The translations under genes and the position numbers were made by a program. The notes under the pieces are model-generated. The model had not been told where the DNA came from. It searched no databases and saw only the letters and a list, made by a program, of their open reading frames with translations. From assembly GCA_024398055.1 (NCBI GenBank), contig CP073749.1:1116001-1180000 (forward strand): a stretch of DNA of 64,000 nucleotides. The letters are read 5' to 3'. Each line of letters starts with the position of its first letter. The stretch's first letter is position 1. The DNA is from a bacterium SCSIO 12741. GTDB lineage: Bacteria > Bacteroidota > Bacteroidia > Flavobacteriales_G > Salibacteraceae. This document shows, piece by piece, positions 6,298 to 63,236 of the stretch.

Positions 6298-8612
6298 AAT
6301 ACGGGTTGTGTTTGGTCCTCCATACCGGTTTTTCCTTTGATTTTTCGTTGCTGAGCATCGTTAGCTGCGATGGTCACCATGTTTACTATCTCTCGAACCG
6401 TGCTTCCAAGTTGCAGTACATGTACAGGCTTCTTCATGCCAAGCAACACCGGGCCAATAGCTTCGATATCAGACATTTCCTGAAGGAGTTTATAAGCAAT
6501 GTTTCCTGCAGATAGGTTTGGAAAGATAAGTGTATTCACACGTTTTTTAGTCAACAGGGAAAAAGGGAAGAGTTCTTCAGTCATTTCTCTGTTTAGTGCA
6601 AAGTTGGCCTGGATTTCTCCGTCGGCGATAATTTCGGGATGTTCCTGGTGCAAAATGGCCACAGCTTCTTTCACTTTGGCTGCATCTTCTCCTTTAGAAG
6701 AACCGAAATTGGAATAGGACAGCAAAGCCATCCGGGGTTGTATGTTGAATCCCTTGATGGCTTCTGCCACTTGAACGGCAATGGTTGCCAACTGACGTGC
6801 ATCGGGATTAAAATTAATCGTAGTATCCGCCAAAAACAGAGGTCCATTCTTAGCATTCAAAATATACATTCCGGCAAGGGTCTTATATCGGCTTCCCACA
6901 CCAATCACCTGAAGAGGTGGCTTCAAGGTATCTGGGTAGTTGCGGGTCATACCGGAAATAAAGGCATCAGCTTCTCCCCACTTAACCATGGCAGCGCCAA
7001 AGAAGTTTCGCTCCCTCATGGCTTTTACACTTTCATACAAAGTGAAGCCTTTGCGTTTGCGCATATCGTAAAAATGCTGCCCAAACTCTTTGCGTTTATC
7101 TTCTTGTTCCTTGCTGCGAGGATCGATGATTTGAACGTCTTGTAAATCCATCTCAAATTGATCAATCAATCGATGGATTCGTTCCCGGTTACCGAGTAGA
7201 ATCGGTTCGGCGATGCCCTCGTCATGTACGATTTGAACCGCCTTCAAAACTTTGTAGTTGTCGGCCTCTGCAAACACTACCTTTTGTTTGTCTTTTTTGG
7301 CTCTTTCTACCAGGCCGCTTACCAACTTGTTGTCAAGCCCCATTCGGTGTTGAAGCTCTTCGCGGTATTTGTCCCAATCAGTGATGGTCTTTTTGGCCAC
7401 TCCAGATTCAATAGCTGCTTTAGCCACAGCAGGAGCCACCACTTCCAGCAACCGGAAGTCGAGGGGCTTTGGAATGATAAAGTCCTTACCAAAAGTCAGA
7501 TTCGTAACGTTGTAAGCAATGTTTACCTCTTCGGGCACCGGTTCCTTCGCCAATTCGGCAATAGCTCTTACAGCTGCCAATTTCATGGCTTCGTTGATCG
7601 CTGTGGCTTGAACGTCTAAGGCACCCCGAAAAATGAACGGGAATCCAAGTACGTTATTCACCTGGTTATTGTGGTCCGAACGACCGGTTGCCACGATGAT
7701 ATCTTCACGAGCACCAATGGCTTCCTTGTAAGGAATTTCAGGATCAGGGTTAGCCAAGGCAAACACGATGCAATTGGGAGCCATGGTTCGAACCATATCG
7801 GCATTCACAATATTTCCCCGAGACAATCCCAGAAAAACATCCGCACCTACCATAGCTTCTTCCAGGGTATTGGCTTCCACCTCGTTGGCAAACAAGCTTT
7901 TGTATTGATCCAGGTTTCCACGAGAAGATTTAATCACCCCTTTGCTATCGCACATGATGATGTTTTCCTTCTTGGCACCAAGAGCAGCGTAGAGTCGCGC
8001 ACAGGAAATGGCACTTGCCCCTGCTCCGCTCACTACAATTTTGATTTTATCAATGTCTTTTTCGGAGAGTTCCAGAGCATTGACCAAGGCAGCCGCTGAA
8101 ATAATAGCTGTACCATGTTGATCATCGTGCATGACCGGAATATCCAACTCCTCTTTCAAACGCCGTTCTATCTCGAAGGCTTCGGGAGCCTTGATATCTT
8201 CCAGGTTGATTCCTCCGAAGGTGGGAGAAATATTTTTTACGGTACGAACAAATTCATCAATATCGGTGGCATCCACTTCAATGTCGAATACATCGATATC
8301 CGCAAATATTTTAAAGAGAAGTCCTTTCCCCTCCATTACCGGTTTTGAAGCTTCCGGGCCGATGTCACCCAACCCCAGTACTGCTGTACCGTTAGAAATA
8401 ACAGCTACGAGATTTCCCTTAGCGGTGTATTCAAATACTTTGCTGGTCTCATCTGCAATTTCCAGACAAGGCTCAGCAACGCCCGGAGAGTAGGCCAAAG
8501 ACAGATCGCGCTGTGAGGTATACGGCTTGGTTGGTCTGACTTCGATCTTTCCTTTTCTACCCTGCGAATGGTAATCAAGAGCTTCTTTTTTTCGATTCTT
8601 CGTCTTCCGCAT
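6294..8612 (-). CDS. maeB: NADP-dependent malic enzyme (malic/phosphotransacetylase fusion)
   Basis: This enzyme decarboxylates malate to pyruvate and supplies NADPH. The 772-residue length is that of MaeB: an N-terminal malic domain (YSPGVAEPC, and VMHDDQHGTAIISAAALVNA), an NAD(P)-binding domain with the VVSGAGASAISCA motif, and from about residue 440 a phosphotransacetylase-like domain. In characterised MaeB proteins that domain is regulatory and binds acetyl-CoA rather than acting as a transacetylase. The ATG at 8612 is the first gene of the maeB-ruvA-sprA run. Its stop overlaps ruvA by four bases. Confidence 0.96.
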   Translation of the reverse strand: MRKTKNRKKEALDYHSQGRKGKIEVRPTKPYTSQRDLSLAYSPGVAEPCLEIADETSKVFEYTAKGNLVAVISNGTAVLGLGDIGPEASKPVMEGKGLLFKIFADIDVFDIEVDATDIDEFVRTVKNISPTFGGINLEDIKAPEAFEIERRLKEELDIPVMHDDQHGTAIISAAALVNALELSEKDIDKIKIVVSGAGASAISCARLYAALGAKKENIIMCDSKGVIKSSRGNLDQYKSLFANEVEANTLEEAMVGADVFLGLSRGNIVNADMVRTMAPNCIVFALANPDPEIPYKEAIGAREDIIVATGRSDHNNQVNNVLGFPFIFRGALDVQATAINEAMKLAAVRAIAELAKEPVPEEVNIAYNVTNLTFGKDFIIPKPLDFRLLEVVAPAVAKAAIESGVAKKTITDWDKYREELQHRMGLDNKLVSGLVERAKKDKQKVVFAEADNYKVLKAVQIVHDEGIAEPILLGNRERIHRLIDQFEMDLQDVQIIDPRSKEQEDKRKEFGQHFYDMRKRKGFTLYESVKAMRERNFFGAAMVKWGEADAFISGMTRNYPDTLKPPLQVIGVGSRYKTLAGMYILNAKNGPLFLADTTINFNPDARQLATIAVQVAEAIKGFNIQPRMALLSYSNFGSSKGEDAAKVKEAVAILHQEHPEIIADGEIQANFALNREMTEELFPFSLLTKKRVNTLIFPNLSAGNIAYKLLQEMSDIEAIGPVLLGMKKPVHVLQLGSTVREIVNMVTIAANDAQQRKIKGKTGMEDQTQPVL

Positions 8613-60479: not shown

Positions 60480-60887
60480 TCAGGTAGAATGAATTTCAGA
60501 TCGCAGTAGTCTAAAGTCTGTTAATCCATAAACCAACTGAAGAAGTACTGCTATAGCGCCGGCAGCGTCCAATGAATCTGATCCAAAATCTTTGGCATAA
60601 CAAAGTATTCCTTCCCACTCATACTTGAAAAACTCATTATACAAATTGAGACTTTTGAATATTTCGTACTCCGAAACTTGATTCGGATCATCTAAGTCGA
60701 AGGGCACATAAACGACTAAGCCAAAATTATCAGCCGGAAATTCGGGTCTCTCTATGCTCATGGGATGGATCACCTGAAGAGCCACATCAGACCCTATGCA
60801 AAAATCCAAAATGTAATGATCATTGAAAGGCCCATATTGACTAATTACCTTATCTAACTGGACCTTTATGGGATTCAGAACACTCAT
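60480..60887 (-). CDS. Small cytosolic protein of unknown function
   Basis: I do not recognise this 135-residue protein. It has no signal peptide or membrane helix. Features are an N-terminal amphipathic segment (IKVQLDKVISQYGPFNDHYI), VVYVPFDLDDPNQVSEYEIF, a Trp-containing centre (YEWEGILCYAKDF) and a hydrophobic C-terminal helix (GAIAVLLQLVYGLTDFRLL). By eye it is richer in A and T than its neighbours. Acidic, solitary proteins of this size sometimes turn out to be immunity proteins, but no toxin gene is nearby and the idea is only a guess. Confidence 0.6.
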   Translation of the reverse strand: MSVLNPIKVQLDKVISQYGPFNDHYILDFCIGSDVALQVIHPMSIERPEFPADNFGLVVYVPFDLDDPNQVSEYEIFKSLNLYNEFFKYEWEGILCYAKDFGSDSLDAAGAIAVLLQLVYGLTDFRLLRSEIHST

Positions 60888-60971: not shown

Positions 60972-61865
60972 TTAGTTTTTCACCCCGGCATGCTTCAAGA
61001 AGCGATCGTACTCTTTCTGAACCATTTCGGATTCAGGAGCAAGAGCAATTGCCTTTTCATAGTGGGTTACCGCATCCATGTACAAGCCGTTGATTTTGTA
61101 GAACTCAGCCAAAAGAGCATGGTACAATGGAGAATCAGGATCAGCTTCCTTATTGATCTCGGCCAGGTCTTTTTCAATCTGAACCATCTCCTCACCAGTA
61201 GGAATTCGAAGAATCAATTCACGGGACTTTTTGTTGTCCGCATCGGTTACAACCAACTTGTAAATCGCATCTTCTTCAAACTCAATAGTAGATAAGTCCA
61301 CGGCAGCCACGGTTTCTTTTACATCAAGGGTAATTACAGACTCATCAAACAAATTGAAGATCTCCACCTTGTAGCTTTCTGAAGGACTCTTGGCATCCCA
61401 CTTAACCGAGGTCATTCGATTTAGGATATACGTGGTTTCTGGCGAGTACACTTTGATGTCGTAATTATCCACCGAGCGCTCAACCGAACCCGTGATACTC
61501 ATGTTCGCCGTTCGCGAATCGTCAGTACCTTGCATTTCATTCATCACATAAGTCAGGTAGCGCTGCGCCAAGGATGAATTATCGGCCTCAAAATTTCCAG
61601 CCGCATCGTTAAGTGTATAAATCCCTGTTTTGTGTAAGTTGAAGGATTGTCCACTGGCGTGCATCAATTGCAGGGAGCCACCTTCGGCTACCATAATCTT
61701 CGCATCCGACGGGAGTTCGGTTCCCGGTCCAATGGGTTGAAAAGTTCCTTCTTTTTGTACGGCATTGTCACCTTTTACAGACAATACTTTAAAACTGCTT
61801 GATTGGGCCCACAGGGCTGGGCTTAACAGAAAAATCAGCAGACTGAGCAGCAAATTCTTTTTCAT
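60972..61865 (-). CDS. Exported FecR-like/TPR protein
   Basis: The 297-residue protein has a signal peptide ending in SPALWAQ. Residues 24-90 form a FecR-like beta domain (FKVLSVKGDNAVQKEG, LPSDAKIMVAEGGSLQLMHA, FNLHKTGIYTL), a central Ig-like part follows (VEIFNLFDESVITLDVK, IYKLVVTDADNKKS), and the C-terminal 60 residues are a TPR-type helical pair (YHALLAEFYKINGLYMDAVT). It is not a membrane anti-sigma factor, because the cytoplasmic part and membrane helix are absent. It is divergent from the CHASE2 gene across a 138-bp shared spacer, which suggests a common sensing function. Confidence 0.83.
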   Translation of the reverse strand: MKKNLLLSLLIFLLSPALWAQSSSFKVLSVKGDNAVQKEGTFQPIGPGTELPSDAKIMVAEGGSLQLMHASGQSFNLHKTGIYTLNDAAGNFEADNSSLAQRYLTYVMNEMQGTDDSRTANMSITGSVERSVDNYDIKVYSPETTYILNRMTSVKWDAKSPSESYKVEIFNLFDESVITLDVKETVAAVDLSTIEFEEDAIYKLVVTDADNKKSRELILRIPTGEEMVQIEKDLAEINKEADPDSPLYHALLAEFYKINGLYMDAVTHYEKAIALAPESEMVQKEYDRFLKHAGVKN

Positions 61866-61887
61866 GGTTACTCCGCGTTTGTTAGAG

Positions 61888-61895
61888 CAAAATTA
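61888..61895 (-). promoter_or_regulatory. -7 element before the FecR-like gene
   Basis: TAATTTTG on the minus strand matches TAnnTTTG exactly, 23 bp before the ATG at 61865. ATTG lies 22 bp further upstream (61918-61921), a weak -33 candidate. Confidence 0.45.
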
Positions 61896-62003
61896 CTCCA
61901 TTTCTTAAAATTACTAACAATTGCCCATAAATACTCGGTTTTTAACTGCTTTATTTTTAGGGATTTATTTTTCTTTGAATGGAGTAATTCTTCGACCTAA
62001 TAC

Positions 62004-63236
62004 ATGAAATATCTTTTTCGTCTCGATAGCCTTATCTGCACGAGTATTCTCCTCGGAGTAGTCGTACTGCTGTCAAATTTGAATTTTAACGTAGAGGTGT
62101 TCGACCCGGTAGCCAAGGCTTTCGAGGATTTTGAGATTTCGGATGTGGTCTTCACACAGCCCAAAGAAAACGACAGAAATCAGGCAACCCTGCGACCTAA
62201 ACCGGAGGCCGATACCAGCATCGTACTGGTTAACATCGGAATGCTCGATCGCGGACAAATAGCGAAACAAATCGACGTACTCAACAAGCATGAACCGGCT
62301 ATAATCGCGATTGATGCCTTTTTCAGGAAGGAAAAGGATCCCATGAAGGATTTTCCACTGGCCATGGCTCTGGCTAACGTTAAGAACCTGGTTTTGGTTA
62401 GTGAATTACATCATATCGATTCAGGATATGCCTGCTTTGATTCCCTTTCCCTTTCCAACCCAATTTTCAATGAAAAAGCCAACAACGGATTTGCCAATGT
62501 GGTAGCCAGCTCGGGAACCCAGGGATTCAGAACCGTAAAGAAGTTCTCTCCTGTAGAATGTTTAGGTGATAGCAGCTACCCTAATTTCTCTACTAAGATT
62601 GCTCAGCTTTATGACCCTGAAGCTTATGAAAAACTAATAAAACGAGGCAACGAAGAGGAAGTAATCAACTGGCGGGGGCACTACAGTAATTTCTACGCTC
62701 TGGATGCTGAAGACGTAATGAATGAAAAATACGACCTAAGCTTCATCAAGGGCAAAATTGTTTTGATGGGTTATATGGGCGTTCCCATGGGCAATTACGA
62801 CCTGGTCGATATATTCTATACTCCCCAAAACCATCGCGTTGCCGGGCGTTCTTATCCGGACACCTACGGAGTTGTTGTTCATGCCAATATTATCTCCATG
62901 ATTCTTCATGGGAACTACCTGCACGAAGCTCCTGAATGGGTGAACTGGGTACTCATATTCATTATTGTTTACCTCAATATTTGCTTCTTCATTTTCGTGG
63001 CTGAGCATAAAAAAATCTACTACGATTTGATCACTAAATCGGTGCAGATTTTGGAAATGATGCTTCTTATGTTCCTGATCGTAATTCTGATGCTGAAGTT
63101 TGAATTCAAATTCCATTTGTCAACGTTGATTGTTGCCATTTTCTTCTCAGGAGACTTCACCGAACTCTACATGGGATCCCTCAAACCCATTACGCTAAAA
63201 CTACTGCGCAAACTCGGCTTCGGCACTCAGGAATAA
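62004..63236 (+). CDS. CHASE2-domain membrane protein without an output domain
   Basis: CHASE2 is an extracytoplasmic sensor domain normally fused to a kinase, cyclase or similar output. The 410-residue protein has a first membrane helix (ICTSILLGVVVLLSN, about 11-25), the CHASE2 domain to about residue 310 (VNIGMLDRGQIAKQIDVLNK, IIAIDAFFRKEKDP, FIKGKIVLMGYMG, YGVVVHANIISMILHGNYL), and three more membrane helices (about 312-333, 347-366, 372-390). It stops after a short basic tail, so nothing can act as an output. It is divergent from the FecR-like/TPR gene, and ispG starts 57 bp downstream. Confidence 0.87.
   Translation: MKYLFRLDSLICTSILLGVVVLLSNLNFNVEVFDPVAKAFEDFEISDVVFTQPKENDRNQATLRPKPEADTSIVLVNIGMLDRGQIAKQIDVLNKHEPAIIAIDAFFRKEKDPMKDFPLAMALANVKNLVLVSELHHIDSGYACFDSLSLSNPIFNEKANNGFANVVASSGTQGFRTVKKFSPVECLGDSSYPNFSTKIAQLYDPEAYEKLIKRGNEEEVINWRGHYSNFYALDAEDVMNEKYDLSFIKGKIVLMGYMGVPMGNYDLVDIFYTPQNHRVAGRSYPDTYGVVVHANIISMILHGNYLHEAPEWVNWVLIFIIVYLNICFFIFVAEHKKIYYDLITKSVQILEMMLLMFLIVILMLKFEFKFHLSTLIVAIFFSGDFTELYMGSLKPITLKLLRKLGFGTQE

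Follow-up and report, generated by a model that had tools for sequence, protein, structure and literature searches.

FecR-type proteins and CHASE2 in described systems

Among the closest described systems is that of Magnetospirillum, in which mtxA is followed by a CHASE2-adenylate cyclase gene and in which, under standard conditions, no phenotype was visible after deletion of MtxA (PMC4439547). The window, by which we mean the whole stretch of 64,000 nucleotides that was analysed here, contains two genes of a similar kind. Like MtxA (4z29), the exported protein encoded by one of them combines an export signal peptide, a beta head, an Ig-like domain and TPR helices, in equal order and of equal size, and adjoins a CHASE2 protein. 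Unlike at the mtxA locus, where the CHASE2 neighbour bears an adenylate cyclase, the CHASE2 protein of the window has no cyclase domain. The exported protein gave no sequence match to PF22121, a family that was weakly matched by five of its 66 relatives (best E-value 0.0063).

The Campylobacterota FecR/TPR/CHASE2-adenylate cyclase cluster likewise places a FecR-domain outer-membrane protein and a TPR protein beside CHASE2, but FecR and TPR lie there on separate genes and are accompanied by a cyclase and a phosphodiesterase, neither of which the window pair has (PMC9239204). The BiofilmReg operon of Burkholderia and P. aeruginosa displays an exported FecR protein adjoining a CHASE2 membrane protein, as here; in that operon, unlike in the window, FecR is combined with LysM and CHASE2 with a histidine kinase, and a response regulator is included (PMC5192318). 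Meanwhile, the metacaspase-CHASE2 of Trichodesmium links a caspase-family domain to CHASE2, as is the case in some of the lineages described below. It is a fused protein predicted to be cytoplasmic, whereas the caspase genes seen here are separate and several of their products are apparently exported (PMC3501461, PMC2853523).

Within the phylum itself, CHASE2-guanylate/adenylate cyclases (loci L232-L251) adjoin exported PF04773 proteins in many loci, often a protein of about 230 aa with a real PF04773 FecR domain. These loci resemble the window pair in that CHASE2 has an exported neighbour, but the cyclases are about 710-755 aa long with Guanylate_cyc (confirmed in four of them), and extra exported ORFs are present. 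At L237, an M48 peptidase gene with an SH3 domain (7198-8442) lies directly downstream of the CHASE2-cyclase, and ORFs with a similar start come after the cyclase in L245 and L251.

The first-pass annotation had put the combination forward as a candidate for an undescribed system. This does not hold for the pairing as such: FecR-type proteins and CHASE2 have been published together with histidine kinase or cyclase outputs (PMC5192318, PMC9239204, PMC4439547), and these cases, along with the PF04773 neighbours of the phylum's cyclases, indicate that the pairing is already known and that the output-less family is a variant of it. Of the output-less CHASE2 family itself, we found no description in the literature (open-licence papers).

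Organisation of the window pair

The gene order read at first pass was confirmed by the ORFs, the Pfam matches and the structural models: a gene for an exported protein faces, across a shared spacer, a divergent gene for a CHASE2 protein that ends after its last helix. The coordinates of both ORFs and the length of the spacer were exact in the window sequence (Table 1). Within the spacer, TAATTTTG is a putative promoter element. Downstream of the exported gene lies a 135-aa ORF (60480-60887, minus strand) that matched nothing in Pfam or NCBIfam and for which the neighbours at the other pair loci included no relative.

Table 1. Features of the FecR-like/CHASE2 gene pair, in window coordinates
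Feature	Position	Strand	Remarks
Exported MtxA-like protein (signal peptide, FecR-like head, Ig-like domain, TPR-like helices)	60972..61865	-	297 aa
Signal peptide, about residues 1-20	61806..61865	-	sequence reading; model helix 3-19
FecR-like beta head, residues 22-93	61587..61802	-	profile comparison and fold match
Ig-like domain, residues 135-222	61200..61463	-	model; MtxA-Big and many FN3/Ig matches
TPR-like helices, residues 224-293	60987..61196	-	weak Pfam TPR matches; model; MtxA match
Shared divergent spacer	61866..62003		138 bp, 31% GC
TAATTTTG, Bacteroidota -7-like	61888-61895	-	inside the 138-bp spacer
Output-less CHASE2 membrane protein	62004..63236	+	410 aa; PF05226 match and model
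CHASE2 protein TM helix 1, residues 7-25	62022..62078	+	model
Periplasmic CHASE2 domain, about residues 31-305	62094..62918	+	Pfam, alignment, model
CHASE2 protein helices TM2-TM4 (311-335, 337-366, 373-403)	62934..63212	+	model

The exported protein

The AlphaFold2 model of the exported protein, obtained from an alignment of the window protein and its relatives, reached a pLDDT of 86. It comprises a beta domain (about residues 24-84), helices (85-125) accompanied by a low-confidence linker after the beta head, an Ig-like sandwich (about 135-222) and four TPR-like helices (224-293), while the N-terminal segment reads as signal-peptide-like in the sequence. Among PDB structures, the model matched best the MtxA C-terminal domain (4z29; E-value 5e-6 in Foldseek), which aligned to residues 136-297 with a VIA-align Z of 11.7 and an rmsd of 2.9 over 148 residues. 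The beta head matched a cell-surface anchoring domain (5ix9; Z 10.5, 71 residues).

The earlier description of this protein as FecR-like stands by profile comparison and by fold, not by a Pfam match. The alignment of the exported family (A4) matched that of FecR proteins (A6), in which eight of ten members carry PF04773 above the cut-off, with an hhalign probability of 95.9 over 95 columns covering the first 95 residues or so. In Pfam, the protein itself had no PF04773 match at E<=1, and PF04773 was absent from the 25 top families of its 66 relatives. In NCBIfam, residues 27-99 matched retention_LapA (NF033682, E-value 5.4e-5) with 23.4 bits against a cut-off of 50. The sigma/anti-sigma layout of FecIR regulators was not encountered either, as no sigma factor gene was recognised among the window neighbours or the conserved neighbour clusters. 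The exported protein carries a signal peptide, unlike the membrane-spanning anti-sigma FecR of such regulators.

A CHASE2 protein without an output domain

The second protein matched CHASE2 (PF05226) with an E-value of 5.1e-23 and 82.4 bits against a curated cut-off of 26.3, the sole such match in the complete 5.1-Mb contig. Its AlphaFold2 model (pLDDT 91.9) consists of one helix, a periplasmic-type domain and three further helices (Table 1), and the 410-aa protein thus has the topology of CHASE2 receptors, with one helix before the extracytoplasmic domain and three after it. The chain stops at residue 410, seven residues past the last helix. CHASE2 is the only domain above the Pfam cut-off: neither a kinase nor a cyclase nor any other output domain was found at the C-terminus of this protein, and none in any of the relatives that were examined. 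A PDB search with the model returned nothing above background (best Foldseek E-value 0.34, Z 5.0), which is no proof of a new fold.

Within the CHASE2 domain, D47, N77, R83, P98, D104, L119, R214, E219, K251, D269, P274, N276, G281, D286, H293 and N295 are invariant. Mean conservation peaks at 0.50 in this periplasmic domain and reaches its minimum, 0.31, in the C-terminal tail. Conserved residues are also found at Y339, Y340, D341, E387 and Y389, which are predicted to lie on the cytoplasmic side, judging from the CHASE2 topology and the basic residues. These positions leave room for a possible small contact with a cytoplasmic or membrane partner.

The first-pass annotation had read the pair as a split envelope sensor that passes its signal through the membrane helices to an output on a different protein. 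In such a reading, the CHASE2 helices would recruit a separate histidine kinase as a cytoplasmic output in trans. The retained 1+3 helix topology, the YYD and ExY residues on what is probably the cytoplasmic side, and the published FecR-CHASE2-HK operons (PMC5192318) are all consistent with this. PAS-HisKA genes occur upstream of exodeoxyribonuclease III, tandem CHASE2 and FecR at L187 (4323-5597), L216 (5099-6694) and L218 (5404-6999), but outside this small lineage the neighbourhood of the pair has no conserved kinase gene, and the C-terminal tail is poorly conserved. HisKA proteins were present in all 20 of the 20 carriers tested, which is uninformative because histidine kinases are everywhere. 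On balance, we consider recruitment of a kinase rather unlikely.

The end of the chain directly after the last helix could also suggest that the gene is a copy of one for a longer receptor that was truncated or is decaying, an explanation that we find hardly credible and have rejected. No longer copy is present elsewhere in the genome, the residues are strongly conserved, and relatives in several classes are mostly 370-475 aa long, apart from double-CHASE2 forms, either tandem or fused, and one family with forms of about 550 aa. In a quick, unrooted maximum-likelihood tree, 75 output-less proteins were set apart from 20 cyclase-type CHASE2 proteins of the phylum by a single branch with 100% SH-aLRT support, suggesting that the output-less family is not a recent truncation.

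Conservation and adjacency of the pair

Across 395 genomes of the class, CHASE2 was detected in 39, the exported protein (strong matches) in 40, and both in 35. The exported protein therefore co-occurs with CHASE2 in 35 of the 39 CHASE2-bearing genomes (Fisher p=3e-40, phylogeny ignored; our P values for co-occurrence do not account for shared ancestry). The two genes are adjacent in 29 of the 35 co-occurring genomes, so that the adjacency sought in other Bacteroidota is not limited to the window's genome. In the other six, both are present but unlinked, which argues for a functional relationship over synteny. Two possibilities had been raised against the first reading, namely that the adjacency occurs in this genome only, or that the CHASE2 protein is a truncated copy of a longer gene; both were examined, and neither holds.

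All 17 carriers of the window's own family (among 149 relatives) encode the exported protein divergently and less than 200 bp from CHASE2, while outside this family the order is mostly CHASE2->FecR on a single strand. A profile scan of named genomes yielded 318 relatives, and the best 80 of these include Crocinitomicaceae, Cytophagales (Fulvivirga, Marivirga, Hymenobacter, Cytophaga), Ignavibacteria and Kapaibacterium. Many Bacteroidota and members of related phyla share the conserved pair. At L209 (8001-10253), CHASE2 and FecR/TPR are fused in one frame of 750 aa (CHASE2-TM5-FecR/TPR), and the hydrophobic segment between the halves would bring the FecR half back to the periplasmic side; this fusion stems from a single MAG contig and could be an assembly error. 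Conserved adjacency, co-occurrence when unlinked, two orientations and one natural fusion collectively bear out the proposal that the two proteins belong together.

Several loci displayed variations in gene content. Tandem CHASE2 genes precede FecR at L171, L187, L188, L204, L216 and L218, and up to four FecR-like copies are found at L216 and L218. An 825-aa double-CHASE2 ORF is encoded at L225 (130-2607), and a prolyl-oligopeptidase-type (S9) gene sits between CHASE2 and the FecR-like gene at L198 (9198-11156).

Candidate effectors

Elsewhere in the phylum, CHASE2 is usually fused to class III cyclases, and six matches to such cyclases were found in the window's genome; activation of a separate class III adenylate/guanylate cyclase by the pair could thus be envisaged. 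Yet class III cyclase matches are missing from 22 of the 27 carriers, PF00211 being present in 5/27 carriers vs 73/122 non-carriers (p=1e-4, phylogeny ignored). This makes a cyclase in trans very improbable, and we rejected it as the general output.

Caspase-family (C14) genes, on the other hand, are enriched at the pair loci: 16 genes were found in 12 of 110 loci, where the Bacteroidia background rate, with genomes assumed to average 3.6 Mb, would predict about 0.42. Not all of the 12 loci are independent, and counting six lineages alone gives a p of about 5e-6. The lineages with C14 genes at the locus comprise G117, G077, the Ignavibacteria L176, L177, L186, L192 and L198, as well as L168/L170, L211, G313 and G382. 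In G117 (L083:6538-14043), the genes abut in the order C14, CHASE2, FecR-like and C14-TPR, with 7 bp and -16 bp at the junctions. Those five Ignavibacteria loci hold a CHASE2/FecR-like cluster with a C14 gene and a papain-like (C1) gene beside FecR, and in four Ignavibacteria genomes the C14 gene at the pair locus is the sole one of the genome.

At L170 (4758-6704, plus strand) and L168 (9283-11274, plus strand), the gene directly downstream of the output-less CHASE2 encodes a protein with a signal peptide, a FecR-like head, a C14 domain and an outer-membrane beta-barrel domain. The His (AGHG) and Cys (DACFSG) motifs of the C14 domain are present. The L170 head matched the FecR-like head of the exported protein (hhalign 99.4%, E-value 6.7e-22, 148 columns), suggesting that one and the same head occurs in two combinations, with Ig-TPR as in the window or with a caspase and a barrel. 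Several of the C14 proteins encoded near the pair apparently carry signal peptides, and this suggests that the effector in those lineages is on the envelope side.

As a partner, the caspase is specific to certain lineages and not universal. In the relatives' set, the genome-wide presence of C14 genes was not linked to the pair (10/27 carriers vs 39/122 non-carriers, p=0.65), and we rejected a universal role on this basis. No caspase-family gene was found near the window's pair or in the loci of its family, and the window's genome has two C14 genes, both unlinked to the pair. As for the co-occurring third gene that the first-pass annotation had proposed to look for, recurrent ones do exist, mostly caspase-family proteases, and they are confined to particular lineages. 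No universal third gene was found; neighbours such as metG, LD-carboxypeptidase, ispG, meaB and exodeoxyribonuclease III represent lineage synteny.

A further explanation is that the pair does not signal and acts as a structural tether, by which the inner membrane, the wall and the outer membrane, or other machines of the envelope, are held together. TPR and Ig folds serve as binding modules, the FecR-like head resembles the anchoring domain of 5ix9 and is fused to an outer-membrane barrel at L168/L170, published FecR partners carry LysM (PMC5192318), and no relative has an output domain. Nevertheless, the periplasmic CHASE2 domain is strongly conserved, the characterised CHASE2 proteins that we found described are all receptors, and the caspase-bearing loci look regulatory. 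We therefore regard a purely structural role as unlikely, and more so than the recruitment of a kinase.

A probable receptor core with a separate effector

Based on these findings, the window pair is a genuine and conserved receptor core of the FecR-CHASE2 type that has no output domain and whose exported partner resembles MtxA. We consider it probable that such pairs form the receptor core of a FecR-CHASE2 envelope module that has no catalytic domain and whose effector is separate, in several lineages probably an exported caspase. Sensing by the pair would be in line with what is known of the family, and we infer physical binding and effector coupling within the module. The exported FecR-like/Ig/TPR protein probably binds the periplasmic face of CHASE2, perhaps via its TPR/Ig surface, and would signal or assemble through the CHASE2 protein. 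The effector would be encoded in neither protein and would differ by lineage. In several lineages it is probably an exported caspase-family protease, clustered with the pair or fused to a FecR-like head and presumably coupled to it, while in the window's own family it would be unlinked to the pair.

More tentatively, output-less CHASE2 proteins and their FecR-like partners may be envelope sensors whose effector acts outside the cytoplasm: a periplasmic or outer-membrane caspase-family protease in several lineages, and an envelope effector in that of the window. If this possibility is true, CHASE2 would control exported proteolysis, not a kinase or a cyclase.

A conserved two-protein version without an enzyme is the simplest system for asking whether FecR-like and CHASE2 domains bind and what their function is. 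Moreover, if exported caspases are the effectors in some lineages, the module would offer an approach to the exported proteases of the caspase family in bacteria, which await an explanation.
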